NCBI RefSeq assembly: GCF_001457475.1 | Contig: NZ_LN831029.1 | Coordinates: 3,038,001-3,102,000 of the forward strand | Source of the DNA: Achromobacter xylosoxidans | GTDB lineage: Bacteria > Pseudomonadota > Gammaproteobacteria > Burkholderiales > Burkholderiaceae_B | Length of the DNA: 64,000 bases | Reading direction: 5' to 3' | Part shown: one piece after another, positions 23,319 through 39,829 of the stretch | How the letters are laid out: each line of letters opens with the position of its first letter | Position numbering within the stretch: the stretch's first letter is position 1 | Made by a program: the position numbers and the translations under genes | The notes under the pieces: generated by a model | The model's input: the letters and a program-made list of their open reading frames with translations, nothing else | What the model was told of the DNA's origin: nothing | The model's database searches: none

Positions 23319-23520
23319 GAAACTCTCCTGCAACGCGGGCCGCCGGAAGGGCGGCGCATTCCTGGAACGATGCAATAATCATGCCAAGCCGCCCAGCGGG
23401 CGGGAGCGCGGCTTGCGGCGCCTGCGGCGCCGGCCGGGTTTACAACAAGACGGTAAATATTGCGCCCGGGCTGGGGACGGAGCGATCCCGTCGCCGCCGC
23501 CGCGCGCGCCGGTACGCCGC

Positions 23521-26041: not shown

Positions 26042-26440
26042 TCACTTGCCGTGGCGGGTCTTCAGGTCGGCCAGGCAGGTGTCCTTGGCATTGCCGGACA
26101 TTGCATCGCATTTTTCCTTGCCGACCTTGTAGTCGGCCTCGTTGCGCGCCTTGGCCGCGTCATGATTGGCTTCAGCCTTTTCCTTGCCGGCCTTGGCGTC
26201 GGCCCTGGCCTTGTCGCGAGTGGCCTGCGCCTGCTGCTCGCAGACGTCCTTCTGGTTGCCCTTCATCGCGTCGCACTGTTTCTTGTCCATCTTGTATTGA
26301 TTGTCGATCTGTTCGTTGCTGCGCACGGCGGAGGAGGCGCCCGAGGCGGTCTGCGCGGCCGCGGGCAGGGCCAGCGCGGACAGGCCCAGCGCCGCGGCCG
26401 GAATGAGCGTCAGGGACAGGCGGATCTTGGACAGATTCAT
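26042..26440 (-). CDS. Secreted protein with two Cys-pair repeats
   Basis: The signal peptide (MNLSKIRLSLTLIPAAALGL...LPAAAQ) is followed by a Lys/Ala-rich helical mature part. Two copies of K-x-C-D-A-M-x-G-N-x-K-D-x-C occur (KKQCDAMKGNQKDVC and KEKCDAMSGNAKDTC), so four Cys could make two disulfides in the periplasm. GGAGCC lies before the ATG at 26440. A near-perfect -24/-12 promoter lies 61 bp upstream. Function unknown. Confidence 0.8.
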   Translation of the reverse strand: MNLSKIRLSLTLIPAAALGLSALALPAAAQTASGASSAVRSNEQIDNQYKMDKKQCDAMKGNQKDVCEQQAQATRDKARADAKAGKEKAEANHDAAKARNEADYKVGKEKCDAMSGNAKDTCLADLKTRHGK

Positions 26441-26500: not shown

Positions 26501-26515
26501 GCAAGCGGCGTGCCC
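26501..26515 (-). promoter_or_regulatory. Sigma-54 promoter for the Cys-repeat protein
   Basis: Read on the minus strand: GGGCACGCCGCTTGC, an exact GGCACG-N4-TTGC match with GG and GC 10 bp apart. The start codon lies about 60 bp downstream. It is back-to-back with the plus-strand motif at 26526. Confidence 0.8.
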
Positions 26516-26525
26516 GCCGCCGCCC

Positions 26526-26540
26526 AGGCACGCCACTTGC
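26526..26540 (+). promoter_or_regulatory. Sigma-54 promoter for the small hydrophilic protein
   Basis: AGGCACGCCACTTGC matches GGCACG-N4-TTGC exactly. The start codon is 57 bp after the motif ends. Only 10 bp separate it from the opposing motif. Confidence 0.8.
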
Positions 26541-26596
26541 AGCGCAACTGCCCGACAGGGTGCCGTCCGCGGCATCCGCGACATCGGGAGATAGCC

Positions 26597-27007
26597 ATGA
26601 GCAAAACCACCACCGCCCAGCCGACCAGCCACCGCAACCAGGACGGCGCGACGGGCGCCGCGAGCCATTCCGGGGACATCGACGCCGGCAAAGCCAACAC
26701 GCCGCAGGACGACACGGCGGCGGCTCACCGCAGCGGCCAGTTCGGGGCGGACCAACCCGGGCGCGATACGCCGGCGGCTCCTCGCCGCGCGGACAAGCAT
26801 CCCCATCCGAAGGGGGCCGAGTATGAAGAAGGCGGCCAGTATCCCGGCACCCGCAAGCCCGAGGCGGCCAGTATCCCGGCACCCGCAAGCCCGGCGCGGG
26901 GCGGTGAGCGCGGCGCGGGCACGGCCGACGACCTTCAGGCCTCGTCGGCGGCGAGCCGGAACAGCAACACCACGCAATGCAGCGCGGCCAAGCCGACCAG
27001 GCCGTAG
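26597..27007 (+). CDS. Small hydrophilic protein, frameshifted by a 32-bp tandem duplication
   Basis: GGGAG precedes ATG 26597. The 136-residue product is disordered and rich in Gln, Thr, Asp, Gly and Ala. At 26829-26892 a 32-bp unit is duplicated; because 32 is not a multiple of three, the frame changes after the first copy. Removing one copy gives an ending PGTRKPGAGR and a stop at 26905-26907. As it stands the frame runs on to 27007 and overlaps the 3' end of the opposite-strand DUF378 gene by 73 bp. The original protein was probably about 92 residues. Confidence 0.7.
   Translation: MSKTTTAQPTSHRNQDGATGAASHSGDIDAGKANTPQDDTAAAHRSGQFGADQPGRDTPAAPRRADKHPHPKGAEYEEGGQYPGTRKPEAASIPAPASPARGGERGAGTADDLQASSAASRNSNTTQCSAAKPTRP
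26829..26892. repeat. 32-bp tandem duplication inside a coding gene
   Basis: Copies at 26829-26860 and 26861-26892 differ at one base. The second copy shifts the reading frame of the small hydrophilic protein. It looks recent, since the copies have hardly diverged. Confidence 0.9.
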
Positions 27008-27219
27008 GCCACGCGGCCGGCCAGCGGCCAGGGCAGCATGCGCGCGAACACATCCAGGTTGACGGCCGCGATCAGGCCGCAGTTCAACCCGCCGGCCACC
27101 AGCGTGACCAGGGCGGTCCAATCCAGCGGCCGCAGGCCGTGGCGGTCGCGGGCGCTGCCGGCAACGTTGTCGCCGTTCGTGGCAAAAGCGAGATCGTCGT
27201 CGTCGCCATAGGTTTGCAT
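26935..27219 (-). CDS. DUF378 family small membrane protein
   Basis: The 94-residue protein has an acidic N-terminus, then LDWTALVTLVAGGLNCGLIAAVNLDV and a second hydrophobic segment (RVAYGLVGLAALHCVVLLFRLA), giving two membrane helices as in DUF378. GGAG precedes the ATG. Function unknown; relatives occur near stress genes. Its promoter is a -24/-12 element 128 bp upstream. Confidence 0.8.
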   Translation of the reverse strand: MQTYGDDDDLAFATNGDNVAGSARDRHGLRPLDWTALVTLVAGGLNCGLIAAVNLDVFARMLPWPLAGRVAYGLVGLAALHCVVLLFRLAADEA

Positions 27220-27346
27220 GTCGCACTCCGATGCCAGCGGCATGCGGGTCATGCGCCGCCGGCGGTGGTGCCGCTTCGCGGCGCGGGATGGCTTGCGCGC
27301 CGCAACCGCGGCCGGCAACCACCACGCTTTCCCCGGTGGCGATGCA

Positions 27347-27361
27347 GCAAGCGGCGTGCCG
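27347..27361 (-). promoter_or_regulatory. Sigma-54 promoter for the DUF378 gene
   Basis: Minus strand reads CGGCACGCCGCTTGC, an exact GGCACG-N4-TTGC match. It is back-to-back with the motif at 27373, 11 bp away, repeating the arrangement seen at 26501/26526. Confidence 0.8.
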
Positions 27362-27372
27362 CGTACCCGGCC

Positions 27373-27387
27373 GGGCATGCCAATTGC
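27373..27387 (+). promoter_or_regulatory. Sigma-54 promoter for the 27437-28696 operon
   Basis: GGGCATGCCAATTGC matches GGCAYG-N4-TTGC, with T instead of C at one position. The start codon is 50 bp after the motif ends. Confidence 0.75.
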
Positions 27388-27436
27388 TGCCGGCAGGGCA
27401 TGGCCCACGACGGGTCCGAGCCGATAGGAGATTGCC

Positions 27437-28030
27437 ATGTCCCTGATTGTTGCCGCGCGCTTCCAGACGTTCGACGAGGCGACCGAGGCGGCGCAGCGCC
27501 TGCGTCTCGAAGGATTCTCCGAGGACGAGCTGCACACGTTCTACATCAACACGGCGGGCGAGCATGCGCGCTTTCCGCTGGGCGGGGATCGCGTCGCGGA
27601 TCCGGATGCCCGCGGCGCGCACCTGGGCGCGCTGGCGGGCGCCGCGGTGCTGGGGTTGCTGCTGGCGTTGGCCGGCGGCCTGGTGGCCCTGTGGTCGGGC
27701 GCCGCGACGCTGGTGGTGATCGTGGCGGCCGGCGCGGGAGCCTATATCGGCGCCCTGGCCGGCGCGTTGCGGGTGGCGGGCAAGAACCGCCGGCGCCCGG
27801 CAAGGACTGCGCCCGAACCCGCCGAGGCGCATCCGGCCCTGCGACAGGCCGGGGTGATGCTGGCGTTGCCCGTGTCCCCGGAGCGCGAAGCCCTGGCGCG
27901 GCGGGTACTGCGCGAGGCGGGAGGGCACGATATCGAACGCGCCCAGGGCCGCTGGCAGGACGGCAAGTGGCAGGACTTCGATCCCCTGAAGCCGCCGCGC
28001 CACGTCGAGGCGCCGTCGGTGGCGCCATGA
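27437..28030 (+). CDS. Membrane protein with glycine-rich hairpin
   Basis: Residues 1-40 (SLIVAARFQTFDEATEAAQRLRLEGFSEDELHTFYI) resemble a compact stress-protein N-terminal domain. Residues 60-110 are Gly/Ala-rich and form two membrane helices (GALAGAAVLGLLLALAGGLVAL and VIVAAGAGAYIGALAGAL). The C-terminal part (about 135-175) looks like a second small alpha/beta domain. I cannot name a characterised family. AGGAG precedes the ATG. It is first in an operon with the DUF4142 gene, 27 bp downstream. Confidence 0.75.
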   Translation: MSLIVAARFQTFDEATEAAQRLRLEGFSEDELHTFYINTAGEHARFPLGGDRVADPDARGAHLGALAGAAVLGLLLALAGGLVALWSGAATLVVIVAAGAGAYIGALAGALRVAGKNRRRPARTAPEPAEAHPALRQAGVMLALPVSPEREALARRVLREAGGHDIERAQGRWQDGKWQDFDPLKPPRHVEAPSVAP

Positions 28031-28057
28031 GCCGCCGATGGCGGCAAGGAGACGCAG

Positions 28058-28696
28058 ATGAATCACAGAACCCTGCTGCAAGCGCTGCTTGCCGCTTGCC
28101 TGTTCATGCTGCTGGCCGCGCCCCTGGCTGCCCGCGCCGCGCAGTTGTCGCCGGCGGACAGCCACTTCCTGCAGGCGGCCGCGGCCGCCGATGCCTTTCA
28201 GCTGCAGGCGGCGCGCCTGGCCAGCGAACGCGCGGCCAGCACCGAAGTGCGGGCCTTCGCCGAGAAGATGCGCTCGAGCTACCAGGAACGGGATGCCAGC
28301 CTGCGGCAACTGGCGCGAGCGAAGCGGATCACGCTGCCGGCCAAGGCGGAGCCCGGCGATCAGCGCGCGCTGGAAGCGATGGCCGGCAAGACCGGAGAAG
28401 CGTTCGACAGCCTTTATATCGAGCAGGTAGCGCTGCTGGCCCATGAGAAGAGCGAGCGTCTGTATCGCACCGCGGCCGAGCAAAGCGCCGATGCCCAGGT
28501 GCGTGATTTCGCCCTGCGCCATCAGCCGGTGCTGGCCGACCAGCTTGCGCTGGCGCGCGCGCTCAAGCGGGATCCGGCGGCACGTCCGGACGCGGCGGCG
28601 CCGCCTGCCCGACAGGGCGAACCCCCGCCGGTGTCGCCGGCCGAGCGCAGCGCGCCCGCCTCGGTGGCCCCGGAGACGGTGGCGCCACAGAAATAG
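28058..28696 (+). CDS. Periplasmic DUF4142 protein
   Basis: A signal peptide (MNHRTLLQALLAACLFMLLAAPLAARA) is followed by the helical DUF4142 domain (about 28-165): LSPADSHFLQAAAAADAFQLQAARLASERAAS, then AFAEKMRSSYQERDASLRQLA, then a C-terminal helix pair. The fold is ferritin-like in this family, but no metal ligands are obvious and the function is unknown. The tail is Pro/Ala-rich. AAGGAG lies before the ATG. Confidence 0.85.
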   Translation: MNHRTLLQALLAACLFMLLAAPLAARAAQLSPADSHFLQAAAAADAFQLQAARLASERAASTEVRAFAEKMRSSYQERDASLRQLARAKRITLPAKAEPGDQRALEAMAGKTGEAFDSLYIEQVALLAHEKSERLYRTAAEQSADAQVRDFALRHQPVLADQLALARALKRDPAARPDAAAPPARQGEPPPVSPAERSAPASVAPETVAPQK

Positions 28697-28727
28697 GCCA
28701 GTCCGCAGGCGCAGGCTGGCCGCGGCC

Positions 28728-29615
28728 TCAGTCGCCCGCGCTGCCCGTGATGGGAAGCACGATGCCGGTGATGTAGCTGGAGCAGGCCGGCGCCGCCAGG
28801 AACACATAGGCGGGCGAGATTTCCTCGGGCTGGGCCGGCCGGCCCAGTTCCGTGTCCTGGCCGAAAGACGGGATTTCGTCGGCGTCGCGGTCGGCGGGGT
28901 TCAACGGCGTCCAGACCGGTCCCGGCGCCACCGCATTGACGCGGATGCCCTGGCTGGTCAGGTTCGACGCCAGCGAGCGGGTGAATGCATGAATGGCGCC
29001 CTTGCTGGTGGAGTAGTCCAGCAGGCCGCCGCTGCCGCGCAGGCCGGTGACCGAGCCGGTGTTGATGATGGCGGCGCCCGCGCGCAGATGGGGCAGGATC
29101 GCGCGCGCCATGTAGAAATAGCCGTAGATGTTGGTGCGCAGGGTCTTGTCCCACTTTTCGTCGCTGATGGCCGACAGCCCTTCGTCGTGCTGTTGGTACG
29201 CGGCGTTGTTCACCAGCACGTCGAGCCGGCCAAAGGCTTGCGCCGCCTGTTCCACGGCCCGGTCGCAGAAAGCCGATTCGCGCACGTCGCCGGCGATCAG
29301 CAGGCAGCGCCGGCCTTCGGCCTGCACCGCGCGCTCGGTTTCGCGGGCGTCCTCGTGTTCGTTGAGATAGACGATGGCGACGTCCGCGCCTTCGCGCGCG
29401 AACAGCACGCTGACCGCGCGGCCGATGCCCGAATCGCCGCCGGTGACGATGGCCGCCATGCCGGCCAGTTTGCCGCTGCCCTGGTAGCCGGGCGCCAGAT
29501 ACTGCGGCCGCAGCGCCATGCGCGCTTCTTCGCCAGGCTTGGGCAGGTGCTGGGCCGGCATGGGCGGCGTCGGATGGGGTCGCGAGCCAGGCGCGGCGTC
29601 GTCGGATTGCGTCAT
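28728..29615 (-). CDS. SDR-family NAD(P)-dependent oxidoreductase (YghA-like)
   Basis: The 295-residue protein has a Pro-rich N-terminal extension typical of stress-associated SDRs (about 1-48). The cofactor motif TGGDSGIGRAV, NNAA, catalytic Ser (NTGSVTG) and YSTSK (Tyr/Lys) follow, with substrate-loop motif APGPVWTPLNP. Relatives include E. coli YghA and Bacillus general stress protein 39. The substrate is unknown. GGGAG precedes the ATG at 29615, and a -24/-12 motif lies 50 bp upstream. Confidence 0.9.
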   Translation of the reverse strand: MTQSDDAAPGSRPHPTPPMPAQHLPKPGEEARMALRPQYLAPGYQGSGKLAGMAAIVTGGDSGIGRAVSVLFAREGADVAIVYLNEHEDARETERAVQAEGRRCLLIAGDVRESAFCDRAVEQAAQAFGRLDVLVNNAAYQQHDEGLSAISDEKWDKTLRTNIYGYFYMARAILPHLRAGAAIINTGSVTGLRGSGGLLDYSTSKGAIHAFTRSLASNLTSQGIRVNAVAPGPVWTPLNPADRDADEIPSFGQDTELGRPAQPEEISPAYVFLAAPACSSYITGIVLPITGSAGD

Positions 29616-29664
29616 GCGGATCTCCCTGGATGGCGGGCGCCGGTGCGCCCTCGGGCCATCCCGA

Positions 29665-29679
29665 GCAACTGCCATGCCC
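29665..29679 (-). promoter_or_regulatory. Sigma-54 promoter for the SDR gene
   Basis: Minus strand reads GGGCATGGCAGTTGC, matching GGCAYG-N4-TTGC. It lies 50 bp before the SDR start codon and beyond the 3' end of the DUF883 gene. Confidence 0.75.
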
Positions 29680-29716
29680 GCGCGCGCCGGCGGCGCGCGC
29701 GGGCGACCCGCCTGCC

Positions 29717-30055
29717 TTACTGGCGTCCCACCACCACGCCGAACAGGAATGCCGCGCCGGCCACCAGGCCGATCGCCTGCCAGGGACGCGCATGGATGTA
29801 CTGCTCGGTGCAGTCGATGGTCTCGCGCACCATGTCCTGGGCGCTGTCGGAGGCGTTGCGCAGGCTGTGGCGGGTATCGCGCAACTGCTCGGCCAGCCGC
29901 GCCTTCAGGGCCTCCAGGTCGGTGGCCGAGGCGTCGCTGAGGGTGGCCTCGAGATCGTCGATCCAGCTTTCGGGGTGACGGCGGCGGCGCGCGCCGCGGT
30001 CGTCGGGGCCGTTCTCGGGAAAGTCCGAGGGCGCGGGGGTATGGTTGTTGGCCAT
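29717..30055 (-). CDS. DUF883/ElaB-YqjD-type inner-membrane protein
   Basis: The 112-residue protein has a charged N-terminus, a long amphipathic helix (about 33-85), and a C-terminal membrane helix (IGLVAGAAFLFGVVVG) preceded by the IHARPWQA motif typical of ElaB/YqjD. Members are tail-anchored and bind ribosomes in stationary phase in E. coli. AGGAG precedes the ATG. No good -24/-12 element is seen before this gene. Confidence 0.88.
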   Translation of the reverse strand: MANNHTPAPSDFPENGPDDRGARRRRHPESWIDDLEATLSDASATDLEALKARLAEQLRDTRHSLRNASDSAQDMVRETIDCTEQYIHARPWQAIGLVAGAAFLFGVVVGRQ

Positions 30056-30266
30056 GGGAAGCTCCTGGAGTCTGCGTTGGCGAAAACATGGCCGCGTTCC
30101 GTCGCGGGCGCGGCGCATGGAGAAAAGGCTGGCATGTATCGGCCCCGTAGGGATCTTGCATTGCATCTCGTTGTGAATGTTCGTTTTACCGTGAACCGGC
30201 GCTCCTGCGGGTCCTGCCACATCCGCTTGCAATTTGAGCCGTGCGCGCATGCTGTCCAGGTGGCGC

Positions 30267-30290
30267 ATGCCGTAGCATGGATCGGACCAT
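30267..30290 (+). promoter_or_regulatory. Leader motif shared with the REC-EAL gene
   Basis: ATGCCGTAGCATGGA followed by TCGGACCAT, nearly the same as 11496-11518. It ends 25 nt before the start codon at 30316. Its core has ATGC and GCAT half-sites. A shared promoter is inferred. Confidence 0.35.
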
Positions 30291-30315
30291 AGCGGATTTA
30301 TCGGGAGCGTTTCGC

Positions 30316-30594
30316 ATGACTTCATCCAAGACCTCCACGCCATCATCATCGCCTGGCAAGCCCCGCGCCGAACGGCAGGCGCGCAGCGGCGCCGCGGCTG
30401 CGGCTTCAGGCAAGGTATTGCCGCCGCAGTCGCCGGTCGACGTGCCGCGCCAGCCCCCCAGGCCTGACGCGGCCACCCCGGACGAAGCCGCCCGCGACGG
30501 CCGCCGGGTGGCCGACGACCAGACCGAATCCAACTGGGCCGACAACGCCCAGCCGCAACCGCGCGCCAAGAACGCCCGCTCGTCGATTCTCTGA
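30316..30594 (+). CDS. Small disordered hydrophilic protein
   Basis: The 92-residue product starts at ATG 30316 with GGGAG upstream. It is rich in Ser, Pro, Ala, Arg and Asp and has no predicted fold. It resembles in composition the small proteins at 26597, 32410 and 39647. The stop codon lies within a 12-bp perfect terminator stem. Confidence 0.65.
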   Translation: MTSSKTSTPSSSPGKPRAERQARSGAAAAASGKVLPPQSPVDVPRQPPRPDAATPDEAARDGRRVADDQTESNWADNAQPQPRAKNARSSIL

Positions 30595-30619
30595 GCGACC
30601 CCGGCCAGGGGTCGCTCAG
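30591..30619. terminator. Bidirectional terminator overlapping two stop codons
   Basis: CTGAGCGACCCC and GGGGTCGCTCAG form a perfect 12-bp stem with loop GGCCA. The stem includes the stop codon of the plus-strand small protein and that of the minus-strand topoisomerase. There is no long T-run. Confidence 0.65.
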
Positions 30620-31647
30620 GCGTCCCGCAGGAAGGCCAGCAGCCGCCGCTCGTCGGCATTCAGGCCGCGCGGCCGCGCGGGCGCGGCGGCGCGCGGCGGC
30701 AGTCGCCCCGCCAGGTATTCCTCGATGATCGATGGATGCACGTAGCAGGCGCGACAGACCGCCGGCGTATTGGCCAGCCGTCGCGATACCTGCTTGATGA
30801 CGTCCACCACTGCCTGCCGCGCCTGCCGTTCATCGACCCAGGGGCAGGCCTGCAGCGCCGCGAAGGCCAGCACGGAACCCGCCCAGGTCCGGTAGTGCTT
30901 GGCGCTGAAATCGGCGGCGCCGGCTTCCCTCAGATAGGCATTGACCGCCTCCGAATCGATGCCATGGGCCTCGCCGGTTTCGTCCAGGTACTGGAACAAT
31001 TGCTGGCCGGGGATCTCCAGGCAGCGCTTGGCCACCCGGGCGATGCGCCGGTCTCTTACCGTCACGTCATGCGCCACGCCGCTCTTGCCGCGGAATCGGA
31101 AGCGCAGGCGGTCGCCACTGACGCTGGCGTGGCGTCGCGTCAGGGTGGTCAGGCCGTAGGAGCGATTGGCGCGCGCATATTCACGCGTGCCGATGCGGAT
31201 CAGGGTGTCGTCCAGCAGGCGCACCACCGCGGCGATCACTTTGGCCCGAGGCAGGCCCGGCATCAGCAAGTCGTGCTGCACCCGGCGCCGGATGCGGGGC
31301 AGCTGCAGGCCGAACGCGCCCAGGCTCTGGTATTTGTCGGCGTCGCGCAACCGTGCCCAGGCGGGGTGGTAGCGATATTGCTTGCGGCCACGCGCATCGC
31401 GTCCGGTCGCCTGCAGATGGCCATGCGGCAATGGGCAGATCCAGACATCTTCGTACGCCGGCGGGATCGCCAGGGCGCGGATGCGCGCCAATTCGGCCGC
31501 GCGGGTGATGCGCCTGCCATGCGTATCCAGGTAATGGAAGGTCGCGCCGTTGACCCGCACCCGGGAATAGCCGGGCCCGGTGTCGTCCATATAGACCAGC
31601 GCGTCATCGGCGCCGCGCTCGGGCGGCGCGGGGCTGCGGTTTGCCAT
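30616..31647 (-). CDS. Type IB DNA topoisomerase
   Basis: This is a bacterial homologue of eukaryotic/poxvirus topoisomerase IB, 343 residues. The N-terminal DNA-binding domain (about 1-100) includes IPPAYEDVWICP and GRKQYRYHPAW. The catalytic domain has RIGTREYARANRSYGLTTL, FRGKSGV, DFSAKHYRTWAGS and the tyrosine motif NTPAVCRACYVHP with catalytic Y302. It relaxes supercoils through a 3'-phosphotyrosine intermediate. Such genes are accessory in bacteria and often sit among stress genes, as here. A -24/-12 element is only 31 bp from the start codon. Confidence 0.93.
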   Translation of the reverse strand: MANRSPAPPERGADDALVYMDDTGPGYSRVRVNGATFHYLDTHGRRITRAAELARIRALAIPPAYEDVWICPLPHGHLQATGRDARGRKQYRYHPAWARLRDADKYQSLGAFGLQLPRIRRRVQHDLLMPGLPRAKVIAAVVRLLDDTLIRIGTREYARANRSYGLTTLTRRHASVSGDRLRFRFRGKSGVAHDVTVRDRRIARVAKRCLEIPGQQLFQYLDETGEAHGIDSEAVNAYLREAGAADFSAKHYRTWAGSVLAFAALQACPWVDERQARQAVVDVIKQVSRRLANTPAVCRACYVHPSIIEEYLAGRLPPRAAAPARPRGLNADERRLLAFLRDA

Positions 31648-31677
31648 GGGCCCTCCTGCAGGTGGCGCCGGCCTGGA

Positions 31678-31692
31678 GCAAGCCGCGTGCCC
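31678..31692 (-). promoter_or_regulatory. Sigma-54 promoter for the topoisomerase IB gene
   Basis: Minus strand reads GGGCACGCGGCTTGC, an exact GGCACG-N4-TTGC match, 31 bp before the start codon. It is divergent from the motif at 31729, 36 bp away. Confidence 0.8.
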
Positions 31693-31728
31693 GGCCCGCC
31701 GCGGGGCCGCGGCAAGTCACTGGCGAAC

Positions 31729-31743
31729 GGGCACGCCGCTTGC
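31729..31743 (+). promoter_or_regulatory. Sigma-54 promoter for the DJ-1/PfpI gene
   Basis: GGGCACGCCGCTTGC, identical to the minus-strand motif at 26501-26515. It ends 34 nt before the start codon at 31778. Confidence 0.8.
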
Positions 31744-31777
31744 TGAGGGATGTCTTGCCGCAAACCGGGAGTATTGA

Positions 31778-32332
31778 ATGACACAGACACTACAGGACTT
31801 CAACGTCGCCATTCTGGTGATGGACGGATTTGAAGAGGTGGAGCTGACCGACCCGCGCGACGCCTTGCGCGCGCAGGGAGCGCGCACCGTCATCGTGTCG
31901 GCGCGGCACGGCGACGTGCAGGGCATGCGCCACCACGACAAGGGCGAGCGCGTCCAGGTGGACCTGACGTTCGCGCAAGCGCGCGCGGAAGCGGACCGGT
32001 TCGATGCCGTGCTGCTGCCGGGCGGCGTGGTCAACGCCGACGAAATCCGCCTGCATCCCGACGCGCGCGAGCTGGTGCGCGCCCTGCACGAGGCCGGCAA
32101 GCCCGTGGCGGTGATCTGCCATGGCGCCTGGCTGCTGATTTCGGCGGGCCTGGTCAAGGACCGCAAGATGACCAGCTGGCCGTCGCTGGCCGACGACCTG
32201 CGCAATGCCGGTGCGCAATGGGTGGATGAGGAAGTGGTGGTGGATGGCCGCTGGATCAGCAGCCGCAAGCCGGACGACATCCCCGCATTCAATCGGGAAC
32301 TGCTGCGCGTTTTTGCGCTGGCGCGCCCCTGA
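31778..32332 (+). CDS. DJ-1/PfpI family protein (YhbO-like)
   Basis: The 184-residue protein has VAILVMDGFEEVEL (conserved Glu at 19 or 20) and the nucleophile elbow AVICHGAWLLISAG (C114, H115). It ends in the family pattern WISSRKPDDIPAFNREL. Members such as YhbO protect proteins or DNA from glycation and oxidative stress; protease activity is disputed. GGGAG precedes the ATG. Two small genes follow on the same strand within 290 bp and may be cotranscribed. Confidence 0.92.
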   Translation: MTQTLQDFNVAILVMDGFEEVELTDPRDALRAQGARTVIVSARHGDVQGMRHHDKGERVQVDLTFAQARAEADRFDAVLLPGGVVNADEIRLHPDARELVRALHEAGKPVAVICHGAWLLISAGLVKDRKMTSWPSLADDLRNAGAQWVDEEVVVDGRWISSRKPDDIPAFNRELLRVFALARP

Positions 32333-32409
32333 GCGCCAGCGTGTCCAGAGGGGAGCGGACCGGGAACCGCCCGGCCGCGCGACCCGCAGCGTATTTACAG
32401 GAGAGCGCC

Positions 32410-32574
32410 ATGCCAGACCATCTGTATTTGCACGTTCCGCCGAAGCCGGAGCCGATTCCGCCAGGCTCGCCGCCGGGCGACCTGCCGGTCGATCCGGACA
32501 CCGATGAGCCCGAGGTCGACCTGCCGCCGCTTGAACCGCCGCCCGCCCGGGACAAGACCGCCACGGTCCACTGA
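32410..32574 (+). CDS. Small Pro/Asp-rich protein, 54 residues
   Basis: CAGGAGAG lies just before ATG 32410. The product starts MPDHLYLHVPPKPEP and is low-complexity with alternating Pro and acidic residues. No fold is recognised. It lies between the DJ-1 gene and a DUF3309 gene on the same strand. Confidence 0.6.
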   Translation: MPDHLYLHVPPKPEPIPPGSPPGDLPVDPDTDEPEVDLPPLEPPPARDKTATVH

Positions 32575-32615
32575 GCGCGCGGGCCGCGCTTGAACCAAGA
32601 ACAAACGGAGCCATC

Positions 32616-32768
32616 ATGTCTACCATTCTGCTGATCGTCCTGATCCTCCTTCTCATCGGTGCCGTGCCCGCGTGGCCGTACAGCCGGGGCTGGGGCTATT
32701 ACCCCAGCGGCCTGCTGGGGATCGTGCTCATTGTGTTGATCGTGCTGCTGCTGACAGGACGCCTGTAG
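32616..32768 (+). CDS. DUF3309 family membrane miniprotein, 50 residues
   Basis: The short reading frame MSTILLIVLILLLIGAVPAW, followed by a Gly/Tyr/Pro segment and a second hydrophobic helix (GLLGIVLIVLIVLLLTG), matches the DUF3309 pattern: two short membrane helices joined by WPYSRGWGYYPSG. CGGAG precedes the ATG at proper spacing. Function unknown. Confidence 0.85.
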   Translation: MSTILLIVLILLLIGAVPAWPYSRGWGYYPSGLLGIVLIVLIVLLLTGRL

Positions 32769-32787
32769 CGCGGCGTCCCGGGCGCGT

Positions 32788-32811
32788 CCGCCCCTGCGGG
32801 AGCAGGGGCGG
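32788..32811. terminator. GC-rich hairpin between convergent genes
   Basis: CCGCCCCTGC and GCAGGGGCGG form a 10-bp perfect stem with loop GGGA, 20 bp after the DUF3309 stop. There is no T-run; it probably terminates or stabilises transcripts. Confidence 0.5.
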
Positions 32812-32870
32812 GCCGCCGCCAACCCGCCCCTGGACGGGCCGTGCGGCGTGCGCGCGGCGCGACGGCCGGC

Positions 32871-34049
32871 TCAGGCTTGCCGCGCCGCGCGTGCGCGCGC
32901 CTGCGCCGCCTGCCGGCCGCGATGCTGCAGCCGCCGGCGGCTGATCCAGATGATCACCCCGGTCGCGAAGAACAGCAGCGGCAGCAGGCCGAGCACCGCC
33001 GTCAGGATGCGGGTCGGCAAGCCGTAGAGGCTGCCTGAGTGCAGCGGGAACATCATCGCCAGGAAGCGTTGCGCGGCCGTGCCTGAAATGGGGTCGGCCG
33101 CCGATACCAGGGCGCCGTTGCGCATGTCGATGAACATGCGCAGGGTGCCGACCGGCTGCCAGTCATCGGCGCGGCGCACGCGCGCCTGGTAGACGCCGCG
33201 CGCCGGATCGCGCCGCAGCATCACCAGGGTGGCGTCGGCCGGCGCCAGGCCGCGCGCCCGGGTCGCGGCGCCGTCCCAGCCGATCTCCGGTTCGGCCGGA
33301 CCCAGCGCCGGCAGAACGGCGGCGCGCGCATCCACCGGCACCGTGGCCACGCTGGCGACCAGTTGCCGGCCCAGTTGCGGCAGGCCCAGGAAAAACCCGG
33401 TGCCCGCCACCACCAGCAGGAATAGCGCGGCTATCAGCCCGGCGGCGCGATGCAGTTCGTAGCTGGTGCGAAAGGCGCCGACGCCGCGCGTCACGGTCAC
33501 CGAGCGACGCCAGTGCCCGGGCCGGGGCCACGCCAGATAGATGCCGGCCGCCAACAGCGCCAGCCATGCCAGCGCCAGCCAACCCAGGATTTCGCGGCCG
33601 GTCTTGCCTTGCAACAGCGTCATGTGCCAGCGCAGCAGCAATGGCATCACATGGGACCGGTCCAGCGCGACCGCATCGCGGTTGCGGCTGGCCAGCAACT
33701 GGCCGGAGCAGGCGTCCACGCCTGCCTCGTTGTCCGCGGTCGCGTCGTGCCTGAATTGCACTCGATAGCTGTCGCCCGCGGCCTGGGGCAGGGTGATGGC
33801 GCCGATCTCGGCGCCGGGCCAGGCTCGCTGGACCGCGCCGGCGGCGGCCGAAGGGGGCTGCGCGGTGTTGCAGGCGCCGGCCGTGTTGCGCAGCATGCGG
33901 GCATTCAACCATCCATCCAATTCATGATCGAAGGCCAGCAGGCTGCCGCTCAGGCCCGCCAGGACCAGCACCACGCCCAGGACCAGGCCCGTCCACCGGT
34001 GCAGGAATGACACGGCGGTGCGCAGGGATTTTCGGAGCTTGGCTTTCAT
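32871..34049 (-). CDS. PepSY-associated TM helix protein
   Basis: From ATG 34049 the protein has 392 residues. It has a first membrane helix with the family motif LHRWTGLVLGVVLVLAGLSGSLLAFDHELD, then a periplasmic PepSY-like region. Helices at about 175 (GREILGWLALAWLALLAAGIYLAWPRP) and 215-245 follow, and a last helix at about 350-375 precedes an Arg-rich tail. Such proteins accompany siderophore or heme uptake and may reduce ferric iron, but no receptor is adjacent. The ATG choice removes 30 unconserved residues. Confidence 0.85.
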   Translation of the reverse strand: MKAKLRKSLRTAVSFLHRWTGLVLGVVLVLAGLSGSLLAFDHELDGWLNARMLRNTAGACNTAQPPSAAAGAVQRAWPGAEIGAITLPQAAGDSYRVQFRHDATADNEAGVDACSGQLLASRNRDAVALDRSHVMPLLLRWHMTLLQGKTGREILGWLALAWLALLAAGIYLAWPRPGHWRRSVTVTRGVGAFRTSYELHRAAGLIAALFLLVVAGTGFFLGLPQLGRQLVASVATVPVDARAAVLPALGPAEPEIGWDGAATRARGLAPADATLVMLRRDPARGVYQARVRRADDWQPVGTLRMFIDMRNGALVSAADPISGTAAQRFLAMMFPLHSGSLYGLPTRILTAVLGLLPLLFFATGVIIWISRRRLQHRGRQAAQARARAARQA

Positions 34050-34159
34050 GGCGCGGTCGATGGCGGGGGAGGCGGGTGGCGCGCAATTGTACCGAGGCGT
34101 AAGATCTGCCGGCGCTTTTTGGCGCCATCGAGTTTTCACTGCCTCCCTCCTGTAGCGAC

Positions 34160-35107
34160 ATGAAGATCCCCTTGTTGATATTGATAGACAGCGTGCACGA
34201 TTTCCTGCCCGCGATCGAAGACCGTGGCTTTCGCTGCATCCTCGCCACCACGCCAGAGGAACGTGCCCGCGCCATTCGTGACCATGCGGACGAGATCCGG
34301 GTCGTGCTGACCCGCGGGGCCACCGGCTTTCGCGTCGACGAGATGGCGGCGCTGCCCCGGCTGTCGTTGATCTGTTCGCTGGGCGTCGGCTTCGAGAACA
34401 TCGACCTGGCCGCCGCTCGCGCGCGCGGGGTGCAGGTCACGCACGGTCCCGGCGCCAACGCCACCTCGGTGGCCGACCATGCCATGGCCCTGCTGCTGGG
34501 CGTGGCGCGGCACCTCCCGCAGGCCGACGCCTGGGTGCGCCAGGGACACTGGAGCGGGTTCATGGGACCGCAGGTATCGGGCAAGCGCCTGGGCATCCTG
34601 GGCCTGGGCAGCATCGGCCTGGAAATCGCCCGGCGCGGCGCCAATGGCTTCGGCATGACGGTGGGGTATTACAGCCGGCGGGCGCGGCCCGATTGCGGTT
34701 ATGCGTACTACGACAGCCCGAGGGCGCTGGCCGAGGCCAGCGATTTTCTGGTGGTCGCCACGCCCGGCGGCGCCGAAACGCGCCACCTGGTGGACGCCGC
34801 GGTGCTCGACGCGCTCGGGCCGCAAGGCTATCTGGTGAACATCGCCCGCGGTAGCGTGGTCGATACCGATGCGCTGATCGCCGCGCTGGCCGGCCGCCGT
34901 ATCGCCGGCGCCGGATTGGACGTGGTGGAAGGCGAGCCGGTGGTGCCGCCGGCGCTGCTGGCGCTGGACAACGTGGTGTTGACGCCGCACAGCGCCGGAC
35001 GTTCGCCCGAGGCGGTGTCGGCGACGGTGGCCCTGTTCCTGGAAAATGCCGGCGCGCATTTCGCCGGCCAGGCCGTGCTGACGCCGGTGCCCCCGCCTCG
35101 CGGCTGA
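34160..35107 (+). CDS. D-2-hydroxyacid dehydrogenase
   Basis: A 315-residue member of the D-isomer-specific 2-hydroxyacid dehydrogenase family. The NAD(P)-binding motif is GILGLGSIGLEIARRG. The catalytic triad is visible: Arg in NIARGSVVDTDAL, Glu in DVVEGEP and His in LTPHSAGRSP. The substrate could be glyoxylate, hydroxypyruvate or another 2-keto acid. It faces away from the PepSY gene across 110 bp. Confidence 0.9.
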   Translation: MKIPLLILIDSVHDFLPAIEDRGFRCILATTPEERARAIRDHADEIRVVLTRGATGFRVDEMAALPRLSLICSLGVGFENIDLAAARARGVQVTHGPGANATSVADHAMALLLGVARHLPQADAWVRQGHWSGFMGPQVSGKRLGILGLGSIGLEIARRGANGFGMTVGYYSRRARPDCGYAYYDSPRALAEASDFLVVATPGGAETRHLVDAAVLDALGPQGYLVNIARGSVVDTDALIAALAGRRIAGAGLDVVEGEPVVPPALLALDNVVLTPHSAGRSPEAVSATVALFLENAGAHFAGQAVLTPVPPPRG

Positions 35108-35132
35108 CGCGGCGCGGGCGCGCGGCCCGGGA

Positions 35133-35969
35133 TCAATGCGAGAACATGATCGGCACGGTCATGCTCTTGAGGATCGACGCGGTGGCGCCGCCCATCGCCC
35201 ATTCGCGGAATTTGCTGTGGCCGTAGGCGCCCATGACGACCAGGTCGGCGCTGTAGTCGGCCGCCGCGTTCAGGATGGTGCCGCCCACGCCCACGCCCTT
35301 GATGTCGCGGCGCGCGTGATCCGGAGCCGGCATGCCCTGGGCGATGCAATAGGTGGCCAGGTCCTCGAACGGCACCGCTTCCTCCTTGCGGGTGGCGGCG
35401 CCTTCGTCCATGGTCAGCACCACCAGATGCGCGGCCAGGCGCAGCAGCGGCGCGGCATCGGCCAGCGCCCGCGCGGCCTCGCGGCTGCCGTCCCAGCAAT
35501 ACAGGACGCGATCGCCGATCACGGGGAAGTCGCCGCTGGACGGCACCACCAGCACCGGCCGGCCGGCGGCCAGCAGCGTTTGCTCGACGAATTCGTTTTC
35601 GTGCGCGGCCTCGATGTCCTCGCGGTTCTGCTGGCTGACGACCAGCAGATCGCTGGTGCGGCCAAGCAGCGCCACGCTGGCGCTGGGCGAACTGGCGCCG
35701 GCGCGCACCACGGCCGGCACGTCGGCCGCGGCGGCGGCTTCGAGGAAGGCGTTCTGCACCGCGCCGCGATTCTGCGCCTGCAGGTCACGCATCACATCGA
35801 GGGTCCGCGACATCATCACGGATTCACCGTAGTAATACTGCAGGGGCGCGGAACTGGCGTAGATGCCGACCAATTCGGCCTTGTGGCGCCTGGCCAGGGC
35901 CAGGGCCACCGCGGTGCGGCGGGGGCAATCGAATCCGTGGTCCAGGTGGACGGAAATGCGGCGGTACAT
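35133..35969 (-). CDS. Universal stress protein (UspA family, tandem-length)
   Basis: From ATG 35969, with AAAAGGAGG just upstream, the protein has 278 residues, about twice a single Usp domain. The N-terminal half starts YRRISVHLDHG. The C-terminal half ends with the ATP-binding pattern GTILNAAADYSADLVVMGAYGHSKFREWAMGGATASIL. Binding of nucleotides under stress is the family role. It lies on the strand opposite the dehydrogenase gene and converges with it. Confidence 0.9.
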   Translation of the reverse strand: MYRRISVHLDHGFDCPRRTAVALALARRHKAELVGIYASSAPLQYYYGESVMMSRTLDVMRDLQAQNRGAVQNAFLEAAAAADVPAVVRAGASSPSASVALLGRTSDLLVVSQQNREDIEAAHENEFVEQTLLAAGRPVLVVPSSGDFPVIGDRVLYCWDGSREAARALADAAPLLRLAAHLVVLTMDEGAATRKEEAVPFEDLATYCIAQGMPAPDHARRDIKGVGVGGTILNAAADYSADLVVMGAYGHSKFREWAMGGATASILKSMTVPIMFSH

Positions 35970-36096
35970 GGCGGCCTCCTTTTGAGTGCGGTAGGCCTCC
36001 ATCGTTGCGCGTTCCCGCGCCAACGCCCTTGATGGGCGTCAACCGGTCCGCAGTTTGCAAGCGTTGCCGCAACCCGCGGGCGCGGCGGCGCCGGGA

Positions 36097-38220
36097 TCAG
36101 GCCTGCTGCACCCGGTCGCGCAGTTGCCGCACCTGGCGCGCCTGCTGCGCGATGCGTTCGAGCGGCCCGGCCAATGTGGGCGCGGCCGCGGCCACCGCGG
36201 CGGGCAAGGCCAGCTGGCGGATGGCGACGGCCGGTTCGGGTTCCTGCGGATGCAGCGCATGCGCCAGCGCCAGGCCGTAGTCGCGCAGGGCCGGCGCGGC
36301 AGGGCTGTCCGGGGGCAGCGGCGGCTGGATCTCCAGCACCGTGCCGGCCGCGGTCACCCGGCGCATCGCGTTCAACAGATTGACGGCGGTATCCACCTTG
36401 CGGTCGCGATGCACGGGATTCTGTTGCAGCCGCTGCAAGGACGCCTCGGCGTTGTCCGCCGACAGGCAGGCCTGGCGGCGCAGGCCCACAATGTCGCCGG
36501 CCGCCCCGGCGCCGCTCTTGGCGCGGATCAGCGCCAGCGCGTAGGCGGCATGGTGTTCCAGCGCGCGGCTGAGCGCGCCCGCCAGTTGGCGGGGTTCCTT
36601 TTCGGGCCATACCAGGAAACCGACCAGCAGCGCCAGCACCCCGCCCAGGACACTGTTGAAGGCCCGCAGCGCCGCCAGCATCGGTTCGTAGATGTCCGGT
36701 TGCTGGATGTGGCTGACCAGCACGAACTGCGAGGTCAGGAAGAACGTGAACAAGGCATAGTGGACAGTGCGCGCGGCGAAGGTGCCGAGCGCGATCGGCA
36801 GCACCGCCAATGCCACCGACAGCGGCGTGCTTAGCAGCAGTCCCAGCAGCGACGCGCCGATGGCGCCGGCCACGCTGCCGATCACCCGTTCGAGCGTGCG
36901 GCGCCAGGTGCCGGCGAAATAGGGTTGCAGGATGAACACCAGCGTCAGCGACATCCAATAGCCGTGATTGACCTCGAAGGTCCTGGACAGCGCCACCGCG
37001 ATGGTGGCGCCGATGCCCACGCGCAAGGCATGACGAAACGCGTCGGACTCGAAACGCAGGTTCTGCCGCAGGCTGCGCCACGCCAGCCGGGCCGGCGTGG
37101 CCGCGCGCGCCGCCGGCGCGGGCGCGACCGGGGCCCCGTCCCGCTCGAACAGCGCCTGCGCGATCGACTGGGCGGTCTGTTGCAGGCGGTCCAGGACCGG
37201 CACCATGGTCGCCAGGTCGGGGGCATGGGCCATGGCGGCTCCACGCAGCTCGTGCAGGCCGGCGCCGAAGTGGGCCAGCCGTTCGCGCAGGCATTCGGCC
37301 TGGCGCGCGTCGCCGACGTCCGAGGTGCTGGCGATGGCGTTGGCGACGCTGGCGTAGCGATGGAAGGCGTGCGACAGGTGGGCGCCGGCGGCGCGGCCGA
37401 GCCAGCGCGGCGCGTTCGACTCCAGCAGGTCGGCGGCGGCCACCAGGGCGATGAAGCTGTCTTCGGCGCTGTCGAGCAGATAGAACAATTGCTGGGCGCG
37501 GGTGCGCCGCGACGGGCGCGCATCCTGCACCTCGCGGATGCGCACGCGCGCCGCTTCCAGCGCGGCCCGCAGTGCGCTGCGCTGGGGCCGGGTGACCGCG
37601 CTCCAGGCTTGCGGACCGGCGGCCGGCGCCAGGCCCGAATACATGCGGGCCAGCGCGTCGGCGAAATCGGCCAGGCCACGATAACAGTGCGCGACCGCGT
37701 GGGTCGCGTCCTTCCAGGGACGGCGGCGCCACACCAGCGCGGTCATCAGGATCGCCCACAGCGCGCCGGCCACGAAGAACAAGGTGTACGACAGGCTGGC
37801 GGCAAGCGTGGGCGCGGGCAGTTCAGCCGCCACCACGAAGCCGGCCGACAGCAGGGTGCCGACAATGGCGGCCGCCGGCCCAAGCACGCGCAGCAGGCCG
37901 CCGAAGGTGCAGCAGGCGAAGGTCAAGGGCAACAACAGCCACAGATGACCGGCGCTGGCGCTGGCCAGGAAGCAGAACAACGCCCCGATCAGGCCCAGCG
38001 CCAGCATCGAGCCGGCGCGCTGGCGCAAGGGCCCGCCAGGATCGCCGAAGCAGGCCCAGAACGCGGCGATGGCGGTCCAGCCCAGCCGCGGCTCGTGCGC
38101 GAGCACGGCCAGGATCACGGGCGCGGCGCTGATGGCGGCGGCTTGCAGGGCATCCAGCCAGAGGACGTGGCGCAGCGAAAGGCGCCAACGGGATAGCAGG
38201 GTAGTCACGCGGGAAACCAC
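36097..38220 (-). CDS. FUSC-family inner-membrane transporter (YccS/AaeB-like)
   Basis: The 707-residue protein has two blocks of membrane helices (about 25-165 and 400-530), each followed by a large cytoplasmic helical domain. This is the FUSC/YccS layout. The second block contains GYWMSLTLVFILQPYFAGTWRRTLERVIGSVAGA, a conserved FUSC motif. Relatives export aromatic acids or fusaric acid. No membrane-fusion partner is adjacent, which favours the YccS type. Confidence 0.88.
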   Translation of the reverse strand: MVSRVTTLLSRWRLSLRHVLWLDALQAAAISAAPVILAVLAHEPRLGWTAIAAFWACFGDPGGPLRQRAGSMLALGLIGALFCFLASASAGHLWLLLPLTFACCTFGGLLRVLGPAAAIVGTLLSAGFVVAAELPAPTLAASLSYTLFFVAGALWAILMTALVWRRRPWKDATHAVAHCYRGLADFADALARMYSGLAPAAGPQAWSAVTRPQRSALRAALEAARVRIREVQDARPSRRTRAQQLFYLLDSAEDSFIALVAAADLLESNAPRWLGRAAGAHLSHAFHRYASVANAIASTSDVGDARQAECLRERLAHFGAGLHELRGAAMAHAPDLATMVPVLDRLQQTAQSIAQALFERDGAPVAPAPAARAATPARLAWRSLRQNLRFESDAFRHALRVGIGATIAVALSRTFEVNHGYWMSLTLVFILQPYFAGTWRRTLERVIGSVAGAIGASLLGLLLSTPLSVALAVLPIALGTFAARTVHYALFTFFLTSQFVLVSHIQQPDIYEPMLAALRAFNSVLGGVLALLVGFLVWPEKEPRQLAGALSRALEHHAAYALALIRAKSGAGAAGDIVGLRRQACLSADNAEASLQRLQQNPVHRDRKVDTAVNLLNAMRRVTAAGTVLEIQPPLPPDSPAAPALRDYGLALAHALHPQEPEPAVAIRQLALPAAVAAAAPTLAGPLERIAQQARQVRQLRDRVQQA

Positions 38221-38563
38221 GAATGGACGATAGTCCGCAATGGCGGAAAAGGCGCAACGCTACCATGTCGACAAGGCGAAATCGCAAAGAAATATTCGAG
38301 CGTCCGAATAATGCGATTTTCATGAATCCTTCGCCTTGAATACTACTGGTTACATATATGTGACTTTGGCGCCGCACAGGCGCAGAATTGCCTGGAGTAA
38401 ATGCGCAAAATCGCATAAAAAAACATTGGCGATCGAATACGCTGGGTAGTACACGAGCCGGTAAGCATATTCCTGCAGGCCGAATGTGAATACTCATGTC
38501 CAATGCGCCCCGTTATGCGCCCGGACAGCGCAGGTCATATTCCGGGGTGCTTCAGGAGCGAAC
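38221..38563. promoter_or_regulatory. AT-rich regulatory region with nested palindromes before an EAL gene
   Basis: No gene is seen. At 38273-38337, AAGGCGAA...TTCGCCTT encloses ATCGCA...TGCGAT and TATTCG...CGAATA, a nested hairpin about 65 nt long. At 38349-38364, GTTACATATATGTGAC is a 16-bp palindrome with one mismatched pair. AAATCGCA occurs at 38279, inverted at 38312 and again at 38408. The base composition is clearly lower in GC than the flanks. CAGGAG before the ATG at 38564 is the ribosome-binding site. Confidence 0.55.
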
Positions 38564-39469
38564 ATGACGCCAACCGACGAGGCTTCCACAAGCTCGGTGG
38601 TGAGCGACCAGGAAGTCGCCGCCATGATTTCAGGCAAAGACGGCCTGCGGGTGTTGCTGCAACCGCAGGTCGACCTGCTGACCGGCCGCATCGTTTCGGC
38701 CGAGGCGCTGGCGCGCTGGCAGCATCCCAAGCTGGGCATCGTGATGCCCGCCGAGTTCGTGCCCGCCGTCAACCGGCTCGGGCTTGACAGGACGCTGTTC
38801 GAGCGGGTCGCGCAGCGCGTCATCGACATGTTGCAGACCATGCGGCGCGCCGGCATGGCGGTTCCCATTGCAATCAATGCCCCGGCGTCGACGCTGTCGG
38901 ACGAGCGCGCGGTCGAATTCCTGCTGGGCCGCATCCATGCCGCCGAACTGCCGGCTTCGCTGCTGCGGGTCGAGTTGACCGAAGACCAGCCCATCAAGGA
39001 ACTGGAGGCGTTGCGTGCGACCCTGGAAAAGCTGGAACAGGCCGGTTGCGAGGTCAGCCTGGACGATTTCGGCACCGGCCACGCCTCCCTGAAACTGCTG
39101 TCGGCCATTCCGTTGTCCGAGGTCAAGATCGACCAGTATTTCGTCACCCGGATGCGGCGCAGCGCGGTGGCGTTCGAGGTGCTGCGCACGGCCGCGGAAC
39201 TGGCCACGCGGATGGGCTGGCGGGTGGTGGCCGAGGGCGTCGAGAACGTTGCCGACATTCCCGCCCTGCGGGCTGCCGGCTGCCGCTACGGGCAGGGCTA
39301 CGCCCTGGGCCGGCCGATGCCGCTGGATGACCTGATGACGCGGTTGCGTGTCCAGCGCGACCGAGGCGAACCGCTGGCCGCGCCCGCCACCTATGCCTCG
39401 GCCTGGCTGGACGCCTTCGATCCGCAGGACGCCGAGGCCGGCCTGCCGGCGCACGTCACCACGCAATAA
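38564..39469 (+). CDS. EAL-domain c-di-GMP phosphodiesterase
   Basis: The 301-residue protein is almost only an EAL domain. The motifs SAEALARW, IAINAPAST, VELTEDQP, LDDFGTG, EVKIDQYF, VAEGVEN and GQGYALGRPMP are all present, so it should be catalytic. The start at ATG 38564 has CAGGAG; a longer frame from 38486 lacks support. It is closely similar to the EAL part of the REC-EAL protein at 11.5-12.8 kb but has no receiver. An elaborate upstream region suggests transcriptional control. Confidence 0.92.
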   Translation: MTPTDEASTSSVVSDQEVAAMISGKDGLRVLLQPQVDLLTGRIVSAEALARWQHPKLGIVMPAEFVPAVNRLGLDRTLFERVAQRVIDMLQTMRRAGMAVPIAINAPASTLSDERAVEFLLGRIHAAELPASLLRVELTEDQPIKELEALRATLEKLEQAGCEVSLDDFGTGHASLKLLSAIPLSEVKIDQYFVTRMRRSAVAFEVLRTAAELATRMGWRVVAEGVENVADIPALRAAGCRYGQGYALGRPMPLDDLMTRLRVQRDRGEPLAAPATYASAWLDAFDPQDAEAGLPAHVTTQ

Positions 39470-39586
39470 GGCCGCGGCAGTCGCGCCGCGTCCGGTCTTT
39501 CCCGCGCCTGCGCGCCGTGCCGCCTTTTCTGCCCACTGCCGCCAAAATTCCCCACAGCCGCTGACGGCGCAAGGGGCGGGGGGGCC

Positions 39587-39601
39587 GGGCACGCCAGTTG
39601 C
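39587..39601 (+). promoter_or_regulatory. Sigma-54 promoter for the Gln-rich miniprotein
   Basis: GGGCACGCCAGTTGC matches GGCACG-N4-TTGC exactly and ends 45 nt before the start codon at 39647. It lies outside the main cluster, 8 kb from the nearest other motif. Confidence 0.8.
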
Positions 39602-39646: not shown

Positions 39647-39829
39647 ATGGCAAACCCCAATCAGCCCGACCAGCAAAAGCAGCAGCAAAAGCAGCAATCC
39701 CAGGAAAATCCGCAGCACCGCGACCGTTCTCAGGGGCAGCAGCCTGGCGGCCAGCAGGTGGACAAGGACCGTGGCCAGGGCCAACAGCCGGGCCAGCAGG
39801 GCGGCCAGCGTTCGCAGACGCAGCGTTGA
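39647..39829 (+). CDS. Gln/Gly-rich disordered miniprotein, 60 residues
   Basis: CAGGAGA precedes ATG 39647. The product is mostly Gln, Gly, Asp, Arg and Pro (MANPNQPDQQKQQQKQQ...), hydrophilic and without fold, in the style of desiccation- or stress-induced hydrophilins. The composition and the -24/-12 promoter link it to the small proteins at 26-32 kb. Confidence 0.7.
   Translation: MANPNQPDQQKQQQKQQSQENPQHRDRSQGQQPGGQQVDKDRGQGQQPGQQGGQRSQTQR

Follow-up and report, generated by a model that had tools for sequence, protein, structure and literature searches.

The window (the whole stretch of 64,000 nucleotides of Achromobacter xylosoxidans DNA that was analysed) contains a gene for a sigma-54 factor, rpoN2, two genes for sigma-54 activators and a group of genes preceded by −24/−12 elements. 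Achromobacter is an opportunist that also lives in soil, and sigma-54 is known above all from the control of nitrogen genes. The original prediction had placed an accessory sigma-54 gene and two of its activators beside the island of targets, and both parts were borne out: the rpoN gene at 21867–23306 is a second copy, the other lying at 155 kb, and both adjoining activator genes are supported by Pfam. The targets had also been called stress-type genes, and their Pfam families agree with that description. The features are listed below, with the elements sorted by the base at −26, just before the −24 GG (T-26 or non-T-26).

18245–21259, + strand: hybrid GAF/PAS histidine kinase with a receiver (Pfam); a weak candidate for signal input
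21867–23306, − strand: rpoN2, accessory sigma-54 factor of 479 aa; second of two PF04552 loci in the genome
23372–23385, − strand: rpoN2's own −24/−12 element with T at −26, 65 bp before the ATG; sequence TGGCATGATTATTGCA
23521–24471, − strand: sigma-54 activator without an N-terminal sensory domain, 316 aa, GSFTGA loop, Fis-type HTH (Pfam); conserved beside rpoN2
24637–26007, + strand: response-regulator sigma-54 activator, 456 aa, GSFTGA loop, Fis-type HTH (Pfam); conserved beside rpoN2
26042–26440, − strand: 132-aa secreted-type Cys-repeat protein, predicted target; no Pfam family
26501–26514, − strand: non-T-26 element, left of divergent pair A, 60 bp before the Cys-repeat gene; largely conserved in 25 aligned sequences
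26527–26540, + strand: non-T-26 element, right of pair A, 56 bp before the miniprotein gene at 26597; no conservation of it was seen in the alignment
26597–27007, + strand: hydrophilic miniprotein, predicted target; an ORF with similar sequences at related loci, missed by the codon-usage caller
26935–27219, − strand: DUF378 protein (Pfam), predicted target
27347–27360, − strand: non-T-26 element, left of divergent pair B, 127 bp before the DUF378 gene; conserved block in 18 aligned sequences
27374–27387, + strand: non-T-26 element, right of pair B, 49 bp before the 27437 operon; conserved block in 18 aligned sequences
27437–28696, + strand: two-gene operon, predicted target; a 197-aa protein (no family over cut-off) and a DUF4142 protein
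28728–29561, − strand: short-chain dehydrogenase (SDR; Pfam), predicted target
29665–29678, − strand: non-T-26 element, 103 bp upstream of the SDR start
30616–31647, − strand: DNA topoisomerase IB (Pfam), predicted target
31678–31691, − strand: non-T-26 element, left of divergent pair C, 30 bp before the topoisomerase IB gene; partly conserved in 5 aligned sequences
31730–31743, + strand: non-T-26 element, right of pair C, 34 bp before the DJ-1/PfpI gene; conserved in 5 aligned sequences
31778–32332, + strand: DJ-1/PfpI protein (Pfam), predicted target
39588–39601, + strand: non-T-26 element, 45 bp upstream of the start of the 60-aa miniprotein gene
39647–39829, + strand: 60-aa hydrophilic miniprotein, predicted target; no Pfam family

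Each of the eight elements predicted for the island was recovered at its place and on its strand. In coordinate order they lie 60, 56, 127, 49, 103, 30, 34 and 45 bp from the start codons (the 56 bp for the miniprotein, whose ATG is at 26597, being a hand count from the ORF), and this range of 30–127 bp confirmed the promoter-like spacing. With GG and GC 10 bp apart, GGCAYG-N4-TTGC has the form of a sigma-54 promoter; the constancy of that spacing, which the original prediction had stressed, is true but built into the pattern and is hence no independent evidence. The whole window contains nine exact matches, compared with a mean of 1.14 in dinucleotide shuffles and nine or more in 0 of 100 shuffles. 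With one mismatch tolerated the window gave 20 matches, fewer than the 26 in shuffles, so that the signal resides in the exact motif. The genome scan bore out the expected enrichment, with eight sites in 13.1 kb against 0.154 expected from the genome mean (Poisson 7e-12). The ninth match, at 23372–23385 on the − strand, had not been noted before; it alone among the nine has T at −26. A fit to the canonical consensus had been claimed for the island elements as well, and this failed at −26, where none of the eight has T; the absence of this T is the informative point about them.

The back-to-back elements of pairs A, B and C are 12, 13 and 38 bp apart (26501–26540, 27347–27387 and 31678–31743), gaps which leave no usual room for an enhancer between them. 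An enhancer search around 32 non-T-26 sites gave no convincing activator site; GC-rich dyads reached 10 sites, compared with at most 7 in shuffles, and were rejected as enhancer candidates as they look like base composition.

We then considered the whole genome, a single contig of 6.81 Mb, using the reversed pattern as a control and calling genes outside the window with our own codon-usage caller rather than a standard program. The exact pattern occurred 80 times and the reversed pattern 12 times. Of these 80 sites, 22 lie within genes and 58 are intergenic, the latter comprising 17 with T at −26 and 41 without. The two classes also differed at −10, where T was present in 15/17 T-26 sites but in only 4/41 non-T-26 sites (P=1.5e-8), whereas −11 was mostly T in both (14/17 and 28/41 respectively). 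The T-26 sites stand largely before nitrogen and carbon genes, plus rpoN2; the ten of the 17 targets that were Pfam-scanned include P-II, glutamine synthetase, an NMT1-like binding protein, allophanate hydrolase, a molybdopterin oxidoreductase and a dicarboxylate symporter.

The island had been described as local, a view that did not hold: only eight of the 41 non-T-26 sites are in the window island, nine are in a second island at 4.64–4.68 Mb and 24 are scattered elsewhere. The second island contains genes for PIG-L, MscS, a low-affinity iron permease, an EEP nuclease, Ku, LigD and CinA, together with GlgA and an alpha-glucan operon, from which GlgB and two more proteins of the alpha-amylase family were scanned. 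It also carries a kinase gene followed by that of a response-regulator activator, a possible third activator, behind a C-26 element (L061:2332-5009, − strand). Among the scattered targets are Mn catalase, a TPP enzyme, DUF883 and DUF3182 proteins. Other non-T-26 sites precede genes that do not look stress-related (an ABC transporter, an aldehyde dehydrogenase, a CysG-like protein and a solute-binding protein, all named by eye), and these may be background. One non-T-26 element precedes a DUF892-like frame, also named by eye (L059:10438-10560, − strand), of just 40 aa and perhaps broken or miscalled.

RpoN2 keeps the activator-interacting (PF00309), core-binding (PF04963) and DNA-binding (PF04552) domains, all over cut-off. 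Its RpoN box reads ARRTVSKYRG instead of the canonical ARRTVAKYRE, and we counted it as a variant box because the three domains, like the remainder of the box, are preserved. The altered residue, which aligns with A459 of the comparison sigma-54, was S or T (ARRTV[S/T]KYR) in 61/61 RpoN2 rows, near-identical loci included, and A (ARRTVAKYRE) in 34/34 RpoN1-type rows; S or T was likewise found in all of the best 120 homologues of RpoN2. Two region I positions, F30 and F43, also separated RpoN2 fully from the RpoN1-type rows. Among the named genomes scanned, A. insuavis, A. dolens and A. ruhlandii have the nearest rpoN2 genes (86%).

The two activator genes adjoin rpoN2 in 30 of 31 Achromobacter, Bordetella and Pigmentiphaga loci, the remaining locus beginning 147 bp before rpoN2. 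In 20 loci of further genera, both were present in 11, one-gene-like matches in two and none nearby in seven. Their loop was GSFTGA in 84/84 matches to a search pattern that demands HE ahead of the loop. The genome has twelve PF00158 matches, nine of them strong, and six of the seven other strong activators could be read, showing GAFTGA, GAYTGA or GAFSGA loops. The hybrid kinase was present in 27/31 of the named loci and in only 2/20 of those from other genera.

The element before rpoN2 itself was found in exact form at a like position in 45/52 upstream regions, that of the window included. It had T at −26 in 22/29 cases in the 31 named loci and in 15/15 in the 20 loci of further genera, and since rpoN2's own site thus usually belongs to the T-26 class, a cascade from RpoN1 to rpoN2 is suggested. 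Six Achromobacter loci near the window and L098 have G or A at −26 of this promoter, which counts against a universal cascade. Two loci of genus g9 (L157 and L158) retain rpoN2 and the activators with no exact element within 260 bp before rpoN2; all four of their sites have A at −26, perhaps a further shift of the code.

To relate the site classes to the sigma factors, 121 genomes of the host's family were grouped, among the matches listed, into 55 with RpoN2 (at least 53% identity to the window protein), 48 with a more distant match only (RpoN1-only) and 18 with none; motif counts and presence lists were transcribed manually before the statistics. G-26 sites (GGGCAYGN4TTGCT) averaged 7.24, 1.06 and 0.89 in the three groups respectively among the matches listed, with 0.60, 0.67 and 0.39 for the reversed control, and T-26 sites averaged 6.13, 6.04 and 1.22. 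These means indicate that T-26 sites track RpoN generally and G-26 sites track RpoN2. The G-26 excess in RpoN2 genomes over RpoN1-only genomes had P=1.5e-14 when genomes were compared and P=4.7e-7 when genus means were; it ran in the same direction in all five genera that hold both kinds, although 15 of the 55 RpoN2 genomes had merely one to three G-26 sites. C-26 sites likewise tracked RpoN2 (6.4 vs 1.5), with a higher reversed control (1.9 vs 0.9). We rejected a code restricted to G at −26 as being too narrow, and the class is best worded as non-T at −26 because C-26 sites follow RpoN2 as well. On these sequence comparisons, promoter discrimination between the sigma-54 paralogues is apparent.

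The loci themselves gave a similar picture. Around 45 rpoN genes (860 kb) there were 180 sites and one reversed match; only five of the 180 came from the 14 loci whose matches are more distant and RpoN1-like. Apart from the rpoN2 promoters, the −26 base in the 31 named loci (L072-L102) was G in 99, A in 29, C in 13 and T in 5 of 146 sites, and T occurred in 5/41 such sites in the 20 loci of further genera. We read 30 of the 59 G-26 sites of five other genera: seven precede orthologues of predicted targets, namely DUF378, a nucleotidyltransferase (1441809), DUF883, MscS, EEP nuclease, GlgA and a TPP enzyme. Downstream of the other 23 sites, 15 ORFs were scanned and included glycine-zipper, PRC-barrel, hemerythrin, Ysc84 and DUF6496 proteins; the Pfam scan of these 15 gave no match for three and a sub-cut-off match alone for one.

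Taken together, the two site classes, their differing gene content, the co-occurrence of non-T-26 sites with RpoN2, the altered box and the usually linked GSFTGA activators support a reading that we consider probable: the island would encode a specialised RpoN2 which, with its own activators, transcribes a genome-wide stress-survival set from −24/−12 promoters lacking T at −26. An unlikely alternative is that RpoN1 reads both classes, the difference between them being due to activators or base composition, with RpoN2 redundant. Both genomic rpoN genes do exceed the Pfam cut-off, the 69% G+C of the window makes G or C at −26 common by chance, and in Bradyrhizobium sp. DOA9 both RpoN proteins are reported to have bound most of the promoters tested in gel shifts (PMC13207237). 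Against this, G-26 sites in RpoN1-only genomes are close to the control in number (1.06 vs 0.67), and T-26 sites are as numerous there as in the others; moreover, C falls below A at −26 in L072-L102, whereas the in-gene background of the genome is C 11, G 6, T 4 and A 1 of 22. It is very unlikely that RpoN2 is an antagonist which occupies promoters without productive transcription, a possibility raised for the RpoN2 of Ralstonia solanacearum (PMC4676750), as the window protein retains its activator-interacting domain and usually adjoins two activators, and the sites lie at promoter distance before genes. Least probable is a site for another, palindrome-binding regulator, since the three divergent pairs do form inverted repeats but single sites occur (29665 and 39588), on which ground a transcription-factor palindrome was rejected, GG-N10-GC is the sigma-54 form and abundance tracks RpoN2 across genomes.

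With a specialised RpoN2 as the preferred reading, the system might work as follows. The box change would cause the shift at −26, which is to G, then A, in Achromobacter islands and also to C elsewhere; a point against this reading is that RpoN1 can presumably bind related sites. Linkage and the GSFTGA loops suggest that the neighbouring activators are the cognate ones of RpoN2, whose holoenzyme would sit on non-T-26 promoters until one or both of them act. The signal would enter via the response regulator and in Achromobacter perhaps also via the neighbouring hybrid kinase. Genes for the envelope, DNA repair, reserve sugar and redox protection would then be co-expressed, often from back-to-back promoter pairs. 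RpoN1 would likely make rpoN2 from its T-26 promoter, completing a cascade, and to judge by gene content the regulon may serve a family that lacks RpoS as its general stress response.

Related factors occur in Burkholderia, where the second RpoN, on the third replicon, has 46–48% identity to the window protein and in a quick tree (with long branches and without Burkholderia RpoN1) groups with it, apart from Alcaligenaceae RpoN1 (98 SH-aLRT). The island of B. multivorans holds DUF892, PRC-barrel, CBS, Ku and LigD genes and one for a type 1 glutamine amidotransferase that reads as PfpI-like. Clade, the Ku, LigD and DUF892 genes and C-26 sites are shared features. C was found at −26 in 4/6 exact sites of the B. 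multivorans locus (T in 2/6) and in 7/7 of the B. cenocepacia locus, which was without annotation. The 550-kb replicon of B. multivorans had 29 sites against four reversed, and the contrast was weaker for the B. cenocepacia replicon (33 vs 10). Nineteen of the 29 form a cluster of sigma-54-like elements within 94 kb around the second rpoN (L224; NZ_CP020399.1, ~244-338 kb). In 82/120 rows, the box of same-clade relatives, most of them under the names Paraburkholderia or Caballeronia, still has A (ARRTVAKYRH). The idea that the change from A to S/T in the box explains everything was therefore rejected, most rows near the Burkholderia protein retaining A.

Specialised sigma-54 paralogues are already known from Cereibacter (Rhodobacter) sphaeroides, whose RpoN1, RpoN2 and RpoN3 are reported to be split by a promoter base and by cognate activators (PMC11999139). 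The base that tells them apart lies at −11 in that species, where nif, flagella and xrpA make up the regulons (PMC11999139), compared with −26 and a predicted stress regulon here; discrimination of the Cereibacter type at −11 was not found in our site classes. The RpoN2 of R. solanacearum (Rsp1671) is reported not to be interchangeable with RpoN1 and, compared by description, resembles the window in being a second sigma-54 factor with two GSFTGA activators nearby by locus tag (Rsp1667 and Rsp1668) (PMC4676750). This 2015 paper leaves the role of RpoN2 open and calls the reason for two RpoN proteins an "intriguing question" (PMC4676750). The closest hint found in print is the RpoNp of Bradyrhizobium sp. 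DOA9, another second sigma-54 with a stress link, for which adaptation to stress and a change from TGG to CGG before the −24 GG are reported (PMC13207237). As described there, DOA9 differs in being an Alphaproteobacterium, in that its sites were derived from the differential genes of mutants and in that its gel shifts showed shared binding (PMC13207237). Among the matches listed in the open-licence literature, we found no paper on the regulon proposed here. The parts that appear to be new, as read from sequence, are the shift of the code at −26, the variant RpoN box and the stress regulon along with its breadth.

RpoS exceeded the family cut-off in 0/121 genomes of the host's family and in 27/60 genomes of the order, three of the 60 being from the host's family. 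The absence of RpoS over cut-off from the 121 genomes makes a stand-in role for RpoN2 attractive. The RpoS general stress regulon of Pseudomonas has similar kinds of target, although RpoS is a sigma-70-type factor and RpoN2 a sigma-54 factor. Burkholderia, unlike the host's family, is reported to have RpoS (PMC2194791). The simple idea that RpoN2 replaces RpoS is weakened by the RpoS of 27/60 order genomes and by Burkholderia having both factors; RpoN2 did not arise solely as a replacement, because RpoN2-type factors occur in RpoS-bearing Burkholderia.

We tentatively propose, as a possibility somewhat short of an even chance, that Burkholderiales may possess an old, separate stress system of RpoN2 and GSFTGA activators that runs parallel to RpoN1 by way of the −26 change, and that in RpoS-less Alcaligenaceae it may be the main general stress response, triggered in a cascade by the nitrogen-type sigma-54. 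If true, this would provide a candidate master stress regulator for a family that lacks RpoS and a proposed role for the second rpoN of Burkholderia and Ralstonia. It would also be a naturally occurring case in which to test how a single promoter base and a single helix separate two sigma-54 factors within the same cell.
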